Origin: an uncultured Lachnospiraceae bacterium
GTDB taxonomy: Bacteria > Bacillota > Clostridia > Lachnospirales > Lachnospiraceae
Assembly (NCBI GenBank): GCA_947382625.1
Contig: CANDAG010000015.1
Location: 1 to 64,000 of the forward strand
Length of the DNA: 64,000 nucleotides
Direction of reading: 5' to 3'
The notes beneath the pieces were generated by a model. That model was given only the letters and a program-made list of their open reading frames with translations. It searched no databases and had not been told where the DNA came from. Position 1 is the stretch's first letter, and every line of letters begins with the position of its first letter. A program made the position numbers and the translations under genes. Of the stretch, positions 24,550-32,405 are shown one piece after another.

Positions 24550-25380
24550 TCACTCATCCACTAACCGCCCGATCACCACATACCTGGCCTCGTCGTAGTC
24601 ATAGGAGCAGGTGGAGAGTGTTACGAGACGGTCCTCTGCTCCCGGCTTCACATCGGAAATAAAGGTGGAAGCCTTGAGGGCGCGATCTAAGATTTCGTCC
24701 CGGTCCTTTAAGGAAGCAGGGAGACTATAGATCGGGTCATCTTCTTTGGTGGTATAACCGGCGATCAGCTCCAGCTTTTGGCGGCGACCCGGCGTGTAAA
24801 GGTACATGACAGGATGAGCCTCATAATATTCAGGGGCCTGGTAATTTAAAAGAGTCTTGAACATGGTGCCGTTTTTCATGTTATGTCCGTAAACAACGGT
24901 ATTCCAGTCAGAAAAATCAGCGCGGCAACGGTAATCAGCAAAAAGTGTGCCGCCCTTTGCGGCGCTGCCGTCAAGCAGCCGGTGCAGATAATGATCATTA
25001 TCCTCTGCCTGCGCGATCACATAATTGAGCCTGGTATCCGGGGAATAGATCCATGCCACAGCATCGCCGCTGATCTCATGGAGTCTGTCAAAGTCAATGG
25101 CGGCGGGGATTTGTAGCGCGTTGTCAGCCTCTGCTTTGCCGGAGGTCTTTTCCATGATAACTGCTTCCTCCCATAGGCTTTGGGAAAAGGAACTGCTTTT
25201 TACGCCTTCAAGCAGATAACCACCGATCTTCCATACAGAGACTGCCAAAACCGTAAGAAACAGGGCGTTGGCCAGAAGAAAGAGTATACGGGAGAAAAGA
25301 CTTTCTTTTCTCCTGTTTTTTTTATTTGACATAAGGACAGTTCGCGAAGCGTGCTGTCCGTTGTTTTTTGTTTTTTTCAT
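24550..25380 (-). CDS. srtB: Class B sortase
   Basis: A 276-residue membrane-anchored transpeptidase that joins surface proteins to the wall or pilus. It has one N-terminal membrane span, the catalytic His in VVYGHNMKNGTMF, the catalytic Cys in TLSTCSY and the Arg near the end (EARYVVIGRLV). The start at 25380 is supported by AAAGGAG six bases upstream. Residues about 6-18 (NNGQHASRTVLMS) are encoded by a copy of palindromic repeat B, inserted in frame. A second possible start is the Met inside it. No obvious sortase substrate is adjacent. Confidence 0.9.
   Translation of the reverse strand: MKKTKNNGQHASRTVLMSNKKNRRKESLFSRILFLLANALFLTVLAVSVWKIGGYLLEGVKSSSFSQSLWEEAVIMEKTSGKAEADNALQIPAAIDFDRLHEISGDAVAWIYSPDTRLNYVIAQAEDNDHYLHRLLDGSAAKGGTLFADYRCRADFSDWNTVVYGHNMKNGTMFKTLLNYQAPEYYEAHPVMYLYTPGRRQKLELIAGYTTKEDDPIYSLPASLKDRDEILDRALKASTFISDVKPGAEDRLVTLSTCSYDYDEARYVVIGRLVDE
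25326..25366 (-). repeat. Palindromic repeat family B, inside srtB
   Basis: On the minus strand this reads AACAACGGACAG ... CTGTCCTTATGTCAA, matching copy 50734-50773 closely. It lies inside the sortase reading frame near its 5' end. Its length leaves the frame open. Confidence 0.8.
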
Positions 25381-25942: not shown

Positions 25943-26121
25943 TATCAGTGCTCCTTAAAGATTCGATTTGCAGTACTATTATAACTTGTTTTTAACGGAC
26001 ACACAATTCCGAAAAGAGAGTAATAAAATAACGGATGTCAGAATGAAATTACTTACCGTAGAGAGTATAAGGGAACTATTAGAGTCAAAAGGGAAATCTC
26101 CTGTAAAATAAGTCATTTCTT

Positions 26122-26152
26122 CATAAAGAAAAAACAGGCACTGCAAGGTGCC
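26122..26152 (-). terminator. Minus-strand intrinsic terminator in the islet
   Basis: CAGGCAC and GTGCCTG form a 7-bp hairpin, followed on the minus strand by a run of T (TTTTTTC). It would terminate leftward transcription from the IS remnant side. The rest of 25943-26276 holds no gene I can support. Confidence 0.5.
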
Positions 26153-26276
26153 TGGTATTAAAAACGGTTTAGTTATTTAGGGAATGTGTGAACAGAATAG
26201 ATAGAAAATCTTCAAGCGTAGAAATGTATATGGCATCGTTGGAATTTTTGGCAAAGTGCAGTGAAGCGGGATTATA

Positions 26277-26501
26277 TTAAATGACTGACACGAGACAAAG
26301 GGATGTCATCAAGGAATTTGCAGCAGATGGAAAGGGAAGAAGTTTGTCAGCGATTGCCTGGTCTGCCATGCCTTCCGCTTTCAGCAGAAGGATCCTGGCT
26401 CTTTTATAGACCCTGGCTTCAACAGTTCCTTTTTTAAGGATAGCTTTTAGGTACGATTTATCATCATCGGAAAGAAAAATAGGTTTAGCATTTTTGACCA
26501 T
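26277..26501 (-). pseudogene. IS630-family transposase remnant (N-terminal HTH only)
   Basis: A 74-codon frame whose first ~55 residues (FLSDDDKSYLKAILKKGTVE, then ARVYKRARILLLKAEGMADQ) match the N-terminal helix-turn-helix region of IS630-type transposases. After AIADKL the frame runs into unrelated residues and stops, and no DDE catalytic domain follows. I did not find terminal inverted repeats. It is a decayed fragment. Confidence 0.6.
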
Positions 26502-26532
26502 TATTCCGCTTCACATAATTTCCCAGGGAATA

Positions 26533-26561
26533 TTGCAAACCAGATTTGCATATGCTATAAT
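26533..26561 (+). promoter_or_regulatory. Promoter of candidate antitoxin RNA
   Basis: TTGCAA (26533-26538) and an extended -10, TGCTATAAT (TATAAT at 26556-26561), are separated by 17 bases. No open reading frame with a ribosome site follows. The transcript would start near 26568 and meet a terminator after ~78 bases. Confidence 0.7.
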
Positions 26562-26567
26562 GCCAGT

Positions 26568-26645
26568 AGGCAATCAAAGAGACGGTTACATCATATGTAT
26601 ACCAAGCGAAAACCCCCGGACTGCACTCCGAGGGTTTTCTTTTTG
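26568..26645 (+). ncRNA. Candidate antisense antitoxin RNA (par/RNA II-like), ~78 nt
   Basis: The RNA is predicted between a strong extended -10 promoter and a hairpin terminator. Bases 26590-26603, ATCATATGTATACC, are antisense to the small-toxin mRNA around its start codon (26742-26755, ATCATATGCATACC). The one difference is compatible with a G-U pair. The 3' hairpin is shared with the convergent toxin transcript. This is the layout of the Enterococcus faecalis par locus, where a ~65-nt RNA II represses Fst translation through repeated sequences. Confidence 0.62.
26609..26645. terminator. Shared bidirectional terminator of the toxin/antitoxin locus
   Basis: AAAACCCCCGGA pairs with TCCGAGGGTTTT around CTGCAC. 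The + strand T tract (TTTTCTTTTT) is strong; the minus strand has TTTT. It ends both convergent transcripts. Confidence 0.8.
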
Positions 26646-26647
26646 GG

Positions 26648-26752
26648 CTAGTTGTCATTATCCTTGCTGTCTAACCACTTGCAAACGAGGTGGCAAACCA
26701 CGCCTGCCGCGACAGCAATCAAAAAAGAGACTATTACATCTATCATATGCAT
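26648..26752 (-). CDS. Small hydrophobic toxin-like peptide (Fst/Ldr-like)
   Basis: A 34-residue peptide (32 if started at ATG 26746). One membrane helix (VIVSFLIAVAAGVVCHLV) is followed by CKWLD and a charged tail ending DSKDNDN. This matches the size, single span, FxxWLxx-type motif and polar tail of Fst-superfamily type I toxins. The AAGGGGGT ribosome site is 5-11 bases upstream of the two ATGs. The frame is open to 26851, but the promoter TGCTATAAT (minus strand, 26793-26798) lies inside that extension, so the short form is the likely product. Membrane damage would be the expected mode of action. Confidence 0.66.
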   Translation of the reverse strand: MHMIDVIVSFLIAVAAGVVCHLVCKWLDSKDNDN

Positions 26753-26792
26753 ACCCCCTTTCCGTTGCCGAATTGGGTATGACAACATAAAA

Positions 26793-26798
26793 ATTATA
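26793..26798 (-). promoter_or_regulatory. Extended -10 of the toxin transcript
   Basis: On the minus strand TGCTATAAT is a consensus extended -10; the -35 region (about 26816-26821) is weak. Transcription would start near 26787, giving an mRNA of about 175 bases that ends at the shared terminator. Confidence 0.55.
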
Positions 26799-26936
26799 GC
26801 ACATCCTGTCAGAAACAGGAACAGAAACTCTATCTGATCAAACGCTGCCACGTTTCGCGAGCCGGCTTATGAATAAAAAATCTCTTCCCTGGAAATCCTT
26901 ATTTTATCCTTATTTCACAATTCCTTTAGAAATACT

Positions 26937-26963
26937 TTAGCACTCACTATTGACGAGTGCTAA
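26937..26963 (+). promoter_or_regulatory. CIRCE operator (HrcA binding site)
   Basis: A perfect TTAGCACTC-N9-GAGTGCTAA element. It overlaps the hsp20 promoter, whose -35 is TTGACG (26950-26955) and -10 is TATAAC (26973-26978), with 17 bases between. HrcA would repress hsp20 until heat or misfolding stress. Confidence 0.95.
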
Positions 26964-27060
26964 CAATTGTGTTATAACATAATTAGAACAAATGATACAG
27001 AGGTTCTAAGCAATAACGATTCACAATTATAATATAGAAGGATTAAAGGAGGAAAAGATT

Positions 27061-27504
27061 ATGTTGATGCCCAGTATTTTTGGAGAAAGCTTATTTGATG
27101 ATTTTTTTGATGATTTTGCCCGCCCGGCAAGGAATGCTGTCAGGTACAATACGCCTGCCACTAACATTATGAGAACCGACATTAAGGAAAGCGATGCCGG
27201 ATTTGAACTGGATATCGATCTTCCGGGCTATAAGAAGGAGGATGTGAAGGCGGAGCTGAAGGACGGTTATCTGACTATCAGCGCGGAAACCAGAACGGAC
27301 AATGATGAGAAGGAAGAGAGCGGAAAATATATCCGCAGAGAAAGATACTATGGCACCTGCAGCAGAAGCTTTTATGTGGGGAAGGAGGTTACCCAGGAGG
27401 AGATCAGAGCCAGGTTCGAGGATGGTATCCTGAAGGTGGCTGTTCCCAAGAAGCAGGCAAGGCCGACAGTGGAGGAATCCAAATATATTCAGATTGAGGG
27501 ATAA
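27061..27504 (+). CDS. Small heat-shock protein Hsp20/alpha-crystallin
   Basis: A 147-residue holdase chaperone. The alpha-crystallin domain spans ~35-135, with FELDIDLPGYKKEDVKAELK, the GKYIRRERYYGTCSRSF strand and the conserved A-x-x-x-x-G-[IV]-L motif near the end (ARFEDGILKVAVPK). AAAGGAGG precedes the ATG. The CIRCE element in its promoter links it to the HrcA regulon. It is monocistronic, with a terminator behind two tandem B repeats. Confidence 0.95.
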   Translation: MLMPSIFGESLFDDFFDDFARPARNAVRYNTPATNIMRTDIKESDAGFELDIDLPGYKKEDVKAELKDGYLTISAETRTDNDEKEESGKYIRRERYYGTCSRSFYVGKEVTQEEIRARFEDGILKVAVPKKQARPTVEESKYIQIEG

Positions 27505-27506
27505 TA

Positions 27507-27586
27507 AACAACGGATGTCAGGCTTCGCCAGCCATCCTTATGTTAAACAACGGATGCCAGGCTCTGTCAGCCATCCTTATGTTAAA
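27507..27586 (+). repeat. Two tandem copies of palindromic repeat B
   Basis: Copies at 27507-27546 and 27546-27586 each start AACAACGGATG and end CATCCTTATGTTAA, with inner stems GGATG/CATCC. They differ in the loop-side bases. They lie between the hsp20 stop and its terminator. The same tandem arrangement appears at 50734-50811. Confidence 0.85.
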
Positions 27587-27587
27587 T

Positions 27588-27627
27588 AACGAGGCAGTCG
27601 CTTTAACGTGCGGCTGCCTCGTTTTTT
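27588..27627 (+). terminator. hsp20 terminator
   Basis: A perfect 10-base stem, AACGAGGCAG with CTGCCTCGTT, followed by TTTTTT. Confidence 0.9.
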
Positions 27628-27734
27628 ATGACAGTATCCAATGATTTCATGAAAGAATGCTAAAGAACCCTGTCTTCTTAAACGAAATAAAAAACAGGAA
27701 ACAGGCAGAGCGGAATGGAAGGAAAGGGGTGGCG

Positions 27735-28427
27735 ATGAACAATAACAGTTTTCTGGTGAACAATATGACCAAAGCCTATGGAGGTCTTTTGCAGAGTCAG
27801 CTTGCGGGAGGTCAGGTGAAAGGGGCGGCGGGCTTTCGGGATGTGGTTACAGCCATGGGCGGAAAGGGAGAAGCAGGAGCTTCTTCGGCAGCAGACCTGC
27901 CTTTGGAAGAATATAAGCAGTATATCTATCAGAAAATTTCCCGGATCCCCATGCATCCCTCCCAGACCATGCGTTCAGTAGCGGTCTTTATTTCCGATGC
28001 GGGATTTGAGGCTATGCGGGCAGATCCGGAGTATGAAAAGTGGGTGTTAGATACACTGAGGTATGATTTTGCATACAATGATCCATGGTCGGAGGTCTGC
28101 GGGGGAAGCTTCACCATCCACCGCTTCGGGGCCACGAAGGAGGAATATCGGGGGGACAGCTGGTATACCGGCTTTCAGAATGGAAGGGGCCGGGCCATCT
28201 ATGAAAAGGAGGCGGAGGAAAGCTTCTGGGAAAAGCGGAGGAAACGGTTTAAGAAATACATGAGGTATCTGCAGGAGGCTGAAAAGGAAGAGAAGATTTT
28301 GGAAAGGGTCTATCAGGAGGCAGCCGTACGGCGGGGAGATTTTGAAAATATGGGTGATTACAAGGCAATGGCACAGATGCTGCCTATGGCCAAGCTTTTA
28401 CTTAATGCGGATAGAAAAGCGGACTGA
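27735..28427 (+). CDS. Protein of unknown function
   Basis: 230 residues from ATG 27735 (behind AAGGGG); an open frame extends to 27657 without a ribosome site. I do not recognise the family with confidence. It starts with a hydrophilic MNNNSFLVNNMTKAYGG segment. It then has a compact region containing SRIPMHPSQTMRSVAVFISD and a C-terminal K/E-rich helical part (EEAEESFWEKRRKRFKKYMR). There is no signal peptide or membrane span, so it is probably cytoplasmic. It may be co-transcribed with the acetyltransferase 79 bases downstream. Confidence 0.7.
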   Translation: MNNNSFLVNNMTKAYGGLLQSQLAGGQVKGAAGFRDVVTAMGGKGEAGASSAADLPLEEYKQYIYQKISRIPMHPSQTMRSVAVFISDAGFEAMRADPEYEKWVLDTLRYDFAYNDPWSEVCGGSFTIHRFGATKEEYRGDSWYTGFQNGRGRAIYEKEAEESFWEKRRKRFKKYMRYLQEAEKEEKILERVYQEAAVRRGDFENMGDYKAMAQMLPMAKLLLNADRKAD

Positions 28428-30179: not shown

Positions 30180-31687
30180 TGAAGGTATTAACGGTTTGTC
30201 TGGATCTGGCAGCCGCTGTCATGAGAAGATACAGTATGGTCTGGCTGTTTTGCGGAGTGCTTCCGGTGAAGGATAGAGGGCCCAAAAGTGAAAGGTGGGT
30301 ATCTGCCGGTTTTGTGGCAGTATCTATGGCCTTTTATGTGGTCGGCAGTTATGTGCCTGCCGTCAGGATTTTTTTCTATGGTGATCCGGAAGGAATGCAG
30401 ACGAGCCGGGCAAGTATTTTGCCTTCGGCAATCAGCCTGTTCCTTATGCTGGCCTACTGCTGTTTCTTTTACTCCGGCAAAAAGAGCAGGATCTGTTACC
30501 TGGTCTGCACCGCATATACCATAAATGAACTTGTGATGTTCATGATCCAGCCGCTTTATTCGTTATTACTAGGCGTGATATCGGCTGTGGTAGAGCATTT
30601 GGTGATATCGGGAAATGCATTTGTGATCGGTCATTTTGACCTGATATTCGGCATTTATCAGACCCTGTGGCAACTGGCTCTTTATCTGACCCTTCTGATA
30701 GTGCTTTACAATATTATCGCGATCATGAAAAGAAACCTGTCCTGTATGGGCAGAGAGCTGACCAGGATGCAGGAGATCTTTCTTGCGGTGCCTGACGGAA
30801 TAGGGATCTGCTTCTGCGTGATGCTCCGCAGTATCCTGTATGCCTATAAGGGCAGGGAAATCCGGTTTTTGATGGATGAATATCCTGAAACCAGACTGCT
30901 TGTTCCGGCAGTTTCAGGGCTGTGCCTGCTTTCCATTATCTTAAGCGCCCTGATCCTGAAAAAGCTGGTGAAGAGCAGCGAAAGAGAAATGCTGCTGGAG
31001 GTCTACAGGAACCGGATCAGCGACATGGAAGAGCATATGAAGGATGTGGAACGGCTTTATGACGGGATCAGGGGAATGCGCCATGATATGAAAAACTGTG
31101 TGGCAGATCTGGAAATCCTGCTACAGAAGAAGCCCGGATTCTCCGAAAAGAGCAACGAAGAGTATGAGGCGGAGGTGCGCCATTACCTGGACGGAATGTG
31201 TCTTGCGATCGATGAACTGGATATAAAGTGCAACACAGGCAATCCGGTTACGGATGTGGTGCTTGGCAGGAAGATACGCCGGGCAGAGCAGGCGGGAATC
31301 CCCATTGAATGTGATTTCATTTTTCCGGAGGGACTGGGTATCAGTGCTTTTGATTTAAGCATCCTTTTAAATAACGGGCTGGATAATGCCATAGAAGCTT
31401 CCCGGAGGGAGGAAGCCCCCTTCATCAGGCTCGACTCCTACAGGAAGGGGAATATGTTTTTTATAGAGATCAGGAATGCGTTTTCCGGCAGTCTTAAGTG
31501 GGACAGTACAGGGACTTTTCTTAAAACAAATAAACCGGATTTTGCAATTCATGGATTAGGAATTAAAAATATGAGGAATTGTGCCGATAAATATTATGGA
31601 ACACTGAGGTATACCGGCAGTAATGGGATATTTTTGCTGACGGTGATGCTTCAGGGGAAGGAGAACCAAAATGGGAATGAAAATTAA
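30176..31687 (+). CDS. GHKL-domain sensor histidine kinase (AgrC-like)
   Basis: 503 residues. About six N-terminal membrane spans (~1-265) are followed by a dimerisation helix with the phospho-His in IRGMRHDMKNCVADLE, an N-box LNNGLDNAIEAS and a G-box HGLGIKNMRNCADKYYG. This is the layout of kinases that serve LytTR regulators and often sense peptides. It overlaps its partner gene upstream and, by 17 bases, the next gene downstream, making a three-gene operon. Confidence 0.92.
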   Translation: MMKVLTVCLDLAAAVMRRYSMVWLFCGVLPVKDRGPKSERWVSAGFVAVSMAFYVVGSYVPAVRIFFYGDPEGMQTSRASILPSAISLFLMLAYCCFFYSGKKSRICYLVCTAYTINELVMFMIQPLYSLLLGVISAVVEHLVISGNAFVIGHFDLIFGIYQTLWQLALYLTLLIVLYNIIAIMKRNLSCMGRELTRMQEIFLAVPDGIGICFCVMLRSILYAYKGREIRFLMDEYPETRLLVPAVSGLCLLSIILSALILKKLVKSSEREMLLEVYRNRISDMEEHMKDVERLYDGIRGMRHDMKNCVADLEILLQKKPGFSEKSNEEYEAEVRHYLDGMCLAIDELDIKCNTGNPVTDVVLGRKIRRAEQAGIPIECDFIFPEGLGISAFDLSILLNNGLDNAIEASRREEAPFIRLDSYRKGNMFFIEIRNAFSGSLKWDSTGTFLKTNKPDFAIHGLGIKNMRNCADKYYGTLRYTGSNGIFLLTVMLQGKENQNGNEN

Positions 31688-32405
31688 TTCGCTGATCTTG
31701 AGCAACAGACTGCTTAGTCAGGCAAGATCACGGACGCGCACGCAGAGCGGGTCTTTAGGCAGTATCATGAACGGCAGCTCAAACAGCGGCAAGAGTGCCA
31801 TGCTTGACGCCATCAAGAACAAAAATTCCAAGGACGGCTTCAGCAAGGCTGACGCCAAGTCCAAAGAAAATTACACTGCCATGAAGAAGGCGGCTGAGAG
31901 TCTGAAAGAGCGGACGAAAAAGCTTCTCGGGTGGCAGGAGAAGGAATGGAGTAGCATGACAGAGGAGGAGCTTACCGAGTATAAGGAGGAGGCTGCATCC
32001 CAGGTTGCCGGTCTGATCGGCGAGTATAATACCCTGATCAAGAGCATGACGGATGAGAGCGGTCAGGTTAATAATATTTACCTGAAACAGCTTACAGGGT
32101 ATTTTAAGAATGCCAAAGGTGCGTTAGGAGAGCTGGGGATTACCCAGAAGGAGGACGGCACACTTTCTCTGGATAAGGAGAAATTCATGGCGGCAGATGC
32201 CGACAAGATCCAGAAGGCTTTGTGCAGCGCGGGTTCCTTTGTGGATGATGTGAATAAGAAGGCGGATAATATCATTGCCAATGCAGAGACAAATCTGGCA
32301 GTCTTAAATAAGAGCCAGTATGCAGGGAGCTATACCTATAATCAGTATGGAAGTGATATTTTTGATATATTGACCTCCGGCAGTAAGTATAATGACAAAA
32401 GCTGA
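31671..32405 (+). CDS. Uncharacterised protein, FliD/hook-associated-like C-terminal segment
   Basis: 244 residues. The start overlaps the kinase gene by 17 bases, with AAGGAG eight bases upstream. The N-terminus is Ser/Asn-rich (SRTRTQSGSLGSIMNGSSNS) and the middle is Lys-rich and helical. The segment LGELGITQKEDGTLSLDKEK, then FMAADADKIQKAL, resembles the end of the flagellar cap protein FliD. There are no flagellar genes nearby, no signal peptide and no membrane span. It might be an export substrate or partner of the two-component system. The resemblance is from memory and unverified. Confidence 0.6.
   Translation: MGMKINSLILSNRLLSQARSRTRTQSGSLGSIMNGSSNSGKSAMLDAIKNKNSKDGFSKADAKSKENYTAMKKAAESLKERTKKLLGWQEKEWSSMTEEELTEYKEEAASQVAGLIGEYNTLIKSMTDESGQVNNIYLKQLTGYFKNAKGALGELGITQKEDGTLSLDKEKFMAADADKIQKALCSAGSFVDDVNKKADNIIANAETNLAVLNKSQYAGSYTYNQYGSDIFDILTSGSKYNDKS

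Follow-up and report, generated by a model that had tools for sequence, protein, structure and literature searches.

A very probable par/Fst-family type I toxin-antitoxin module lacking the helix proline in a Lachnospiraceae genome and its relatives

Here we analyzed a compact locus in a 64,000-nucleotide stretch of DNA from an uncultured Lachnospiraceae bacterium (the window; positions are those of the whole stretch) and conclude that it is very probably, with a probability of about 0.93 judged from the sequence, a type I toxin-antitoxin module of the par/Fst family. Our observations are of the anatomy of the locus, its conservation, the co-change of repeats and of helix arms, and the predicted specificity among paralogs; the last of these, together with the breadth of the branch, the helix motif that sets it apart and its near absence from the curated model, is what is added here, modules of the par/Fst kind and Fst-like peptides in two Clostridium species being already known. 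The features of the locus are the following.

26533-26561, + strand: promoter of the antisense RNA (RNA II), with TTGCAA, a 17-nt spacer and TG-C-TATAAT
26568-26645, + strand: predicted antisense RNA (RNA II) of ~78 nt, its start (-10 plus 7 nt) and its end (hairpin and T-run) placed by inference
26570-26603, + strand: antisense copy of the direct repeats (DRa/DRb equivalents), placed by alignment
26609-26638, both strands: shared hairpin terminator, with a 12-bp stem and a 6-nt loop (26621-26626)
about 26786 to 26605, - strand: predicted toxin mRNA, placed from the sequence
26648-26746, complement: toxin reading frame of 32 amino acids (MIDVIVSFLIAVAAGVVCHLVCKWLDSKDNDN); the alternative start at 26752 gives 34
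26651-26658, - strand: upstream helix, 3' arm (ATGACAAC), which reaches as far as the stop codon
26715-26755, - strand: direct repeats as carried by the toxin mRNA, beginning just ahead of the start codon and reaching about codon 11
26754-26763, - strand: Shine-Dalgarno sequence (GGAAAGGGGG), largely paired in the predicted fold with U-rich downstream codons
26779-26786, - strand: upstream helix, 5' arm (GTTGTCAT), beginning GTTGTC from 26786, where the mRNA is predicted to start
26793-26803, - strand: toxin promoter, with the extended -10 TGTGCTATAAT (TGC-TATAAT, the -10 at 26798-26793) and a weak -35

A review on Fst/Ldr peptides (PMC7472228) describes the par layout as convergent promoters, a shared terminator, direct repeats (DRa/DRb) over the start codon and an upstream helix. 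The original prediction that the window locus has the layout of Enterococcus par (Fst) was borne out, in that these elements are present, conserved across relatives and arranged in the same order in L245, a locus of E. faecalis annotated as Fst. On sequence grounds only, the toxin mRNA and the antisense RNA have convergent promoters, and the two extended -10 promoters that had been proposed, one on each strand, are both there as described, with only a weak -35 in the case of the toxin promoter; the antisense promoter is the closer of the two to consensus. A TG precedes the chosen -10 of the toxin promoter in 65 of 83 relatives, a count to which a picking rule favoring TG contributed. With regard to the shared hairpin terminator, the hairpin itself stands (26609-26638) and is a good predicted terminator in the + direction, where CTTTTT follows it, but on the - strand the hairpin is followed by CGCTTGG only, with TTTT at the stem end, so that the U-tract is weaker there. 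The terminator loop reads GUGCAG (26621-26626) and contains no YUNR U-turn, unlike the par locus of pAD1, and according to the same review text this U-turn is absent from some par homologs (PMC7472228).

The 14-mers ATCATATGTATACC (26590-26603) and ATCATATGCATACC (26742-26755), which the original prediction had paired with each other, are identical at 13 of 14 positions and form part of a repeat longer than had been noted. The full alignment of 26570-26603 with 26715-26755 contains two gaps and three mismatches and has a score of 33; among 19,919 random 45-nt pieces drawn from the window the highest score was 29. Through these repeats the antisense RNA is predicted to pair with the toxin mRNA over the start codon, in the manner of DRa and DRb.

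Analysis of the toxin frame also agreed with the proposed 32-34-residue single-span peptide with a charged tail at complement 26648-26752, the 32-residue form being the likelier. Translation probably starts at the second ATG (26746), because the ATG at 26752 lies only 1 nt from the GGGGG of the Shine-Dalgarno sequence and because the printed relatives use the more distant position; ATG 26746 has ordinary Shine-Dalgarno spacing. A longer product reaching 26851, raised at the outset as an observation that would speak against the module, is unsupported, because the predicted mRNA starts near 26786. The peptide has a single span (19-residue hydropathy mean up to 2.66), a tryptophan at position 24 of 32 and the tail DSKDNDN, and thus shows the tryptophan between hydrophobic helix and charged C-terminus that is a feature of the Fst/Ldr superfamily. 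This tryptophan is found in 172 of 172 relatives, the rows having been chosen for K-W. Substitutions among 83 loci indicate constraint at the protein level in this frame (pS 0.67, pN 0.23), the pS/pN values of the other two frames being 0.40/0.31 and 0.26/0.34.

An additional par feature that the original prediction overlooked is the complementarity of GTTGTCAT to ATGACAAC, all eight bases of which pair in the predicted fold of the window mRNA, sequestering the mRNA 5' end in the same place as in L245. The two arms co-change among the 83 loci (GTTGTC/GACAAC, GTTACC/GGTAAC, GCTGTC/GACAGC, GTTGCTC/GAGCAAC and others), and the match between arms of the same locus (16.4) exceeds that between mismatched arms (13.1), none of 10,000 permutations reaching the observed mean. 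The own pair was the unique best in just 8 of the 83 loci, a ranking that is weak because many loci have one and the same helix. The helix forms in the predicted folds of 54 of the 83 mRNAs, as compared with 23-34 of 83 when 5' ends are swapped, and is not formed in those of the other 29 relatives. We take this element, as predicted, to correspond to the upstream helix of par and to be no new device, because such a helix is described for par in the review text (PMC7472228). For the 5'-3' helix we also weighed a hok-like fold-back but set it aside, given that the same helix occupies the same position in the E. faecalis Fst locus and that the review describes an upstream helix. As for the Shine-Dalgarno sequence, at least 3 of its 5 bases are paired in the predicted folds of 67 of 83 relatives, a count that has no control, and in the window this pairing is with downstream codons.

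Searches among relatives identified three copies of the peptide in the window's own genome, to which a profile search adds two weak places (E 0.18 and 0.77), and a copy in 17 of 98 relatives at E 0.01. At E 0.001 a 17-row profile of the branch detected the peptide in 85 of 392 Lachnospirales genomes and in 15 of 398 genomes drawn across the phylum. Among 196 genomes of the order, the curated Fst model, for its part, exceeded its cut-off in 1 and reached E 0.01 in 3. These results suggest that par/Fst modules are frequent in Lachnospirales and are mostly missed by the curated Fst model.

For the test of the repeats, 109 loci yielded 96 distinct hits, 94 of them with a usable motif and 83 non-redundant. 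The start region matched its own antisense leader with a mean of 34.2, against 15.5 for mismatched loci and 15.0 for the sequence just beyond (82 loci). The own repeat was the unique best in 74 of 83 loci and among the best three in 79, and this mean was not attained in any of 10,000 permutations; paired repeats are thus present in almost every locus compared, and their lack in homologous loci would have spoken against the original prediction. The four loci outside the best three are L007, L027, L051 and L074, among which L027 has no recognizable promoter and start and L051 has no terminator and repeat where expected.

An independent route, in which genome contigs were scanned for the antisense promoter alone, gave at least 120 stretches; 36 of the 80 titles listed say Lachnospiraceae, and most of the others give a clostridial genus or a broader name. 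Among the matches listed, a convergent and close toxin frame was found at 103 of 123 sites, whereas three control placements at the same 123 listed sites gave a toxin frame at 0, 0 and 2. The other 20 of the 123 sites among the matches listed include 7 that run off the stretch (<200 bases left) and 13 that do not. In viral contigs the frame was present at 26 of 26 stretches, on 21 contigs. A second set of 89 new non-redundant loci, taken from the matches listed in the two scans, had the own leader as unique best in 73 cases (0 of 10,000 permutations). Single bins named Bacilli and Alistipes also occur among the titles listed, and one contig labeled Alistipes sp. (MAG; L143) carries an antisense promoter but no toxin frame that we could find, perhaps as a result of mis-binning. 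Fst-like frames were also seen in close tandem, a few hundred bases apart, in G777:C28 40480-42906, G767:C4 36246-37056, G638:C23 95580-96846 and G371:C243 75-464.

Where several loci share a genome, most copies are predicted to be specific for their own antisense RNA. In the 23 genomes of the set with at least two loci, the own antisense RNA was the best partner, by predicted duplex energy, for 51 of 53 toxin mRNAs, the two exceptions being again L027 and L051. In the window genome the own pairs have predicted energies of -54.2, -48.6 and -41.3 kcal/mol, whereas those of the cross pairs range from -21.8 to -30.1 kcal/mol; in some genomes the margin is small (for example, -37.9 vs -35.3 in G422). 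The modules are therefore mostly predicted to leave each other unsilenced. They provide many natural toxin-antisense pairs with predicted mutual specificity, and hence material for the study of how repeat pairing sets specificity.

Comparison with known systems places the locus close to par of pAD1 (Fst), L245 and L111, with which it shares convergent promoters, a shared terminator, DRa/DRb at the start codon and a single-span peptide of roughly 32 amino acids with a charged tail. L245 also has GGCAGC at the 5' end and GCTGCT just past the stop, with the same fold. The window peptide is 25% identical to that of L245, 53% identical to that of L111 and 51.5% identical to a Lactococcus peptide annotated as Fst, and it keeps the tryptophan at a position where pAD1 Fst has valine. 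C. bolteae is now placed in Enterocloster, and an uncultured Enterocloster contig (L121) carries the antisense promoter together with a convergent toxin frame. For C. bolteae and C. asparagiforme, an earlier study had reported Fst-like sequences (Fozo 2010, as cited in PMC6563280), which plausibly belong to the same branch, a likeness drawn from the hosts. The original statement that this peptide had not been described as a toxin thus holds for the curated models searched but has to be tempered by that earlier report; commensal Clostridia are likewise named as par/Fst hosts in the review text (PMC7472228). RNA II is predicted at about 78 nt in the window, as against about 40 nt given there for pAD1. 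Lpt of Lactobacillus rhamnosus and Fst-Sm/srSm of Streptococcus mutans resemble the locus in their convergent RNAs and in direct repeats over the start codon, with a bidirectional terminator in the S. mutans system and an upstream helix proposed for Lpt; they differ in peptide sequence, a proline motif being reported for both. The type I toxins of C. difficile (NF047374) show weak peptide similarity and differ, according to PMC6563280, by their 50-53 amino acids and by a long region complementary to the convergent antisense RNA in place of separate repeats.

Database models gave little for the branch. The NCBIfam Fst model NF033608 scored the window peptide at 12.9 bits, under its 26-bit cut-off, and the best score in the 17-member set (25.6 bits, L025) was also below it. 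Pfam gave no match at cut-off for the window peptide, Rfam no family above gathering score within 26000-27200, and Pfam and PADLOC together nothing that we judged meaningful; weak TNFR, holin and DUF matches were discounted, since transmembrane helices tend to produce such matches by chance. A sequence search of the PDB returned just two membrane proteins of other families (E 0.18), and among the open-licence papers listed we found nothing on this peptide branch as a toxin more specific than reviews of Clostridia and of Fst/Ldr. In the case of the C. difficile model NF047374, 6 of the 17 members are weakly similar (best E 0.002, 18.5 bits), and the equivalog cut-off of 60 bits was reached by none of the 17. 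This family was rejected as an assignment: at E 0.01 its model had matches in 9 of 146 genomes, and no match exceeded the cut-off.

The most conspicuous departure from Fst lies in the helix. The motif of the window peptide is A11-VAA-G15, whereas the motif P/D/S/TXXXG is a feature of the majority of Fst/Ldr peptides; the review text knows P, D, S and T clades and gives the proline as essential for pAD1 Fst and Lpt (PMC7472228). The alanine form of the window peptide falls outside this list. Counted from the tryptophan, position W-13 holds serine in 77, alanine in 69 and threonine in 23 of 172 relatives, and position W-9 holds glycine in 119 and serine in 39 of 172; a proline within the 18 residues before W occurs in 4 of 172. 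In the window peptide alanine stands in for the essential proline of Fst, as A, S or T does in most relatives, and the change is a substitution because, counting from W (V in pAD1 Fst), the Fst proline lies at -13 and the glycine at -9. The alternative of a one-residue deletion of the proline, prompted by a gap in a peptide alignment, was rejected, the position showing substitution. Since the residue needed for the toxicity of Fst and Lpt is here mostly A, S or T, the branch could be used to probe what the helix proline does.

The same substitution is what would make one think of a decayed or silenced par copy, in which the anatomy was inherited and the peptide is no longer toxic: the window has alanine where two tested Fst peptides need proline (PMC7472228), and nearly all relatives share its lack of proline. 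Yet the 168 of 172 relatives without proline do not look like relics, as the 83 compared keep strong protein constraint and matched repeats; the review counts S and T clades among those known (PMC7472228), and the loci that do look decayed are unlike the window, L027 showing no recognizable promoter and start and L051 no terminator and repeat where expected. We regard decay as improbable. It is also unlikely, in our judgment, that the locus makes a small membrane protein with a regulatory or structural role, held under antisense control with no toxin involved. The unclear roles of chromosomal par copies in the review text (PMC7472228) and the neighborhood of the window copy, with its Hsp20, SurE, sortase and GNAT genes, would suit such a protein, but the occurrence of relatives on small plasmids, on four contigs with Rep3 or relaxase genes and at 26 viral-contig stretches is what addiction modules would show.

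That frame, repeat and promoter coincide by chance deserves next to no credence. The repeat finder did not list the repeat, and the longest exact block common to both copies, which differ by gaps, is 9 nt. These points would favor such an explanation, but it is refuted by conservation, co-change and promoter-first recovery. In particular, the repeat is more than chance because of the own-repeat ranking, the second locus set, the promoter-first search and the paralog specificity.

Returning to the par/Fst reading, the module might work as follows, with transcription, RNA lifetimes, toxicity, membrane action and addiction all inferred from the family. The - strand mRNA would encode the 32-residue single-span membrane peptide, and the + strand RNA, made from its own promoter, would be complementary to this mRNA at the terminator hairpin and, through the direct repeats, at the start-codon region. 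By analogy with par, antisense RNA may dock at the terminator hairpins, binding at the loop, and then cover the start and early codons, thereby blocking ribosome entry. The pairing of the mRNA 5' end with the stop-codon region would form the upstream helix that protects the message, and the pairing of the Shine-Dalgarno sequence with downstream codons would hold translation back until antisense binding. Should the supply of antisense RNA stop, as might happen if the DNA were lost, the mRNA, being longer-lived, would be free for translation, and its peptide product would act on the membrane.

With respect to genomic context, the window copy adjoins genes for Hsp20, GNAT, sortase and SurE. Hsp20 matches were found in 18 of 37 genomes of the same genus; the Hsp20 loci L236-L240, the five best of ten after the window, align from 26866 or later and not with the module, and their genomes have no peptide match at E 0.01. 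In L002, L004, L005, L007 and L020 the DNA similarity is limited to the module, ending at 26523-26548 and at 26801-26821. As the Hsp20 neighborhoods align without the module and five other loci align at about 26523-26821, the module appears to be gained and lost as a unit of ~300 bases, and a mobile cassette with its own ends was a reading that we considered from these alignments. A fragment with a weak helix-turn-helix match adjoins the module at 26277-26501, and we take it to be, possibly, the remnant of an IS630-type transposase. Segments 27506-27618 and 25322-25370 also match paralog L002 outside its module and represent a dispersed repeat, and two sizeable frames (27657-28427 and 31671-32405) have no Pfam match at E 0.001.

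Relatives are found on small plasmids of Mogibacterium and Mediterraneibacter gnavus (L112, L113), and Rep3 or relaxase genes are present on four of the five small contigs examined from the promoter scan; the remaining one (L117) has neither these nor a toxin frame. Such modules could serve as plasmid markers or stabilizers in Lachnospirales bacteria. In the E. faecalis plasmid pJF1A-4353-2 (L110) a proline-less KWLD peptide with repeat and terminator stands unannotated in the feature table. The window peptide matches 189 Enterococcus plasmid records at E 10 or better, of which L110 was the one examined, and the window DNA matches 27 Streptococcus plasmid records (for example, L114, S. thermophilus pER13); among the 19 Streptococcus records listed, one and the same short piece is matched, covering the KWLD codons and the stop region.

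The antisense promoter appears to be conserved beyond what a promoter seems to need, and a possible operator may lie within it. The 17-mer GCATATGCTATAATGCC from this promoter has 3 exact matches in the window's genome (88% complete), one per toxin locus, and one further place elsewhere with 2 mismatches. The palindrome GCATATGC overlaps its extended -10. We offer as a doubtful conjecture, more likely to fail than to hold, that the proline-less Fst branch ranks among the most frequent addiction systems of Lachnospirales, on plasmids, phages and chromosomes alike, while being almost unseen by annotation, that its copies diversify by co-changing repeat pairs and so coexist in one cell without cross-silencing, and that a dyad common to many antisense promoters (GCATATGC plus TGCC-N4-GGCA) may be an operator letting one host protein set the antitoxin level of several copies together.

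Within 26548-26573 of the window the palindrome lies at the extended -10 and the dyad TGCC-N4-GGCA spans the start; the dyad is also seen in many relatives, though it is absent from some, and in L042 it reads TGTC-N4-GACA, being changed on both arms. Another dyad, CCTGT-TTCTG-ACAGG, is found just upstream of the extended -10 in the toxin promoters of the window (26793-26821), L004 and L011.
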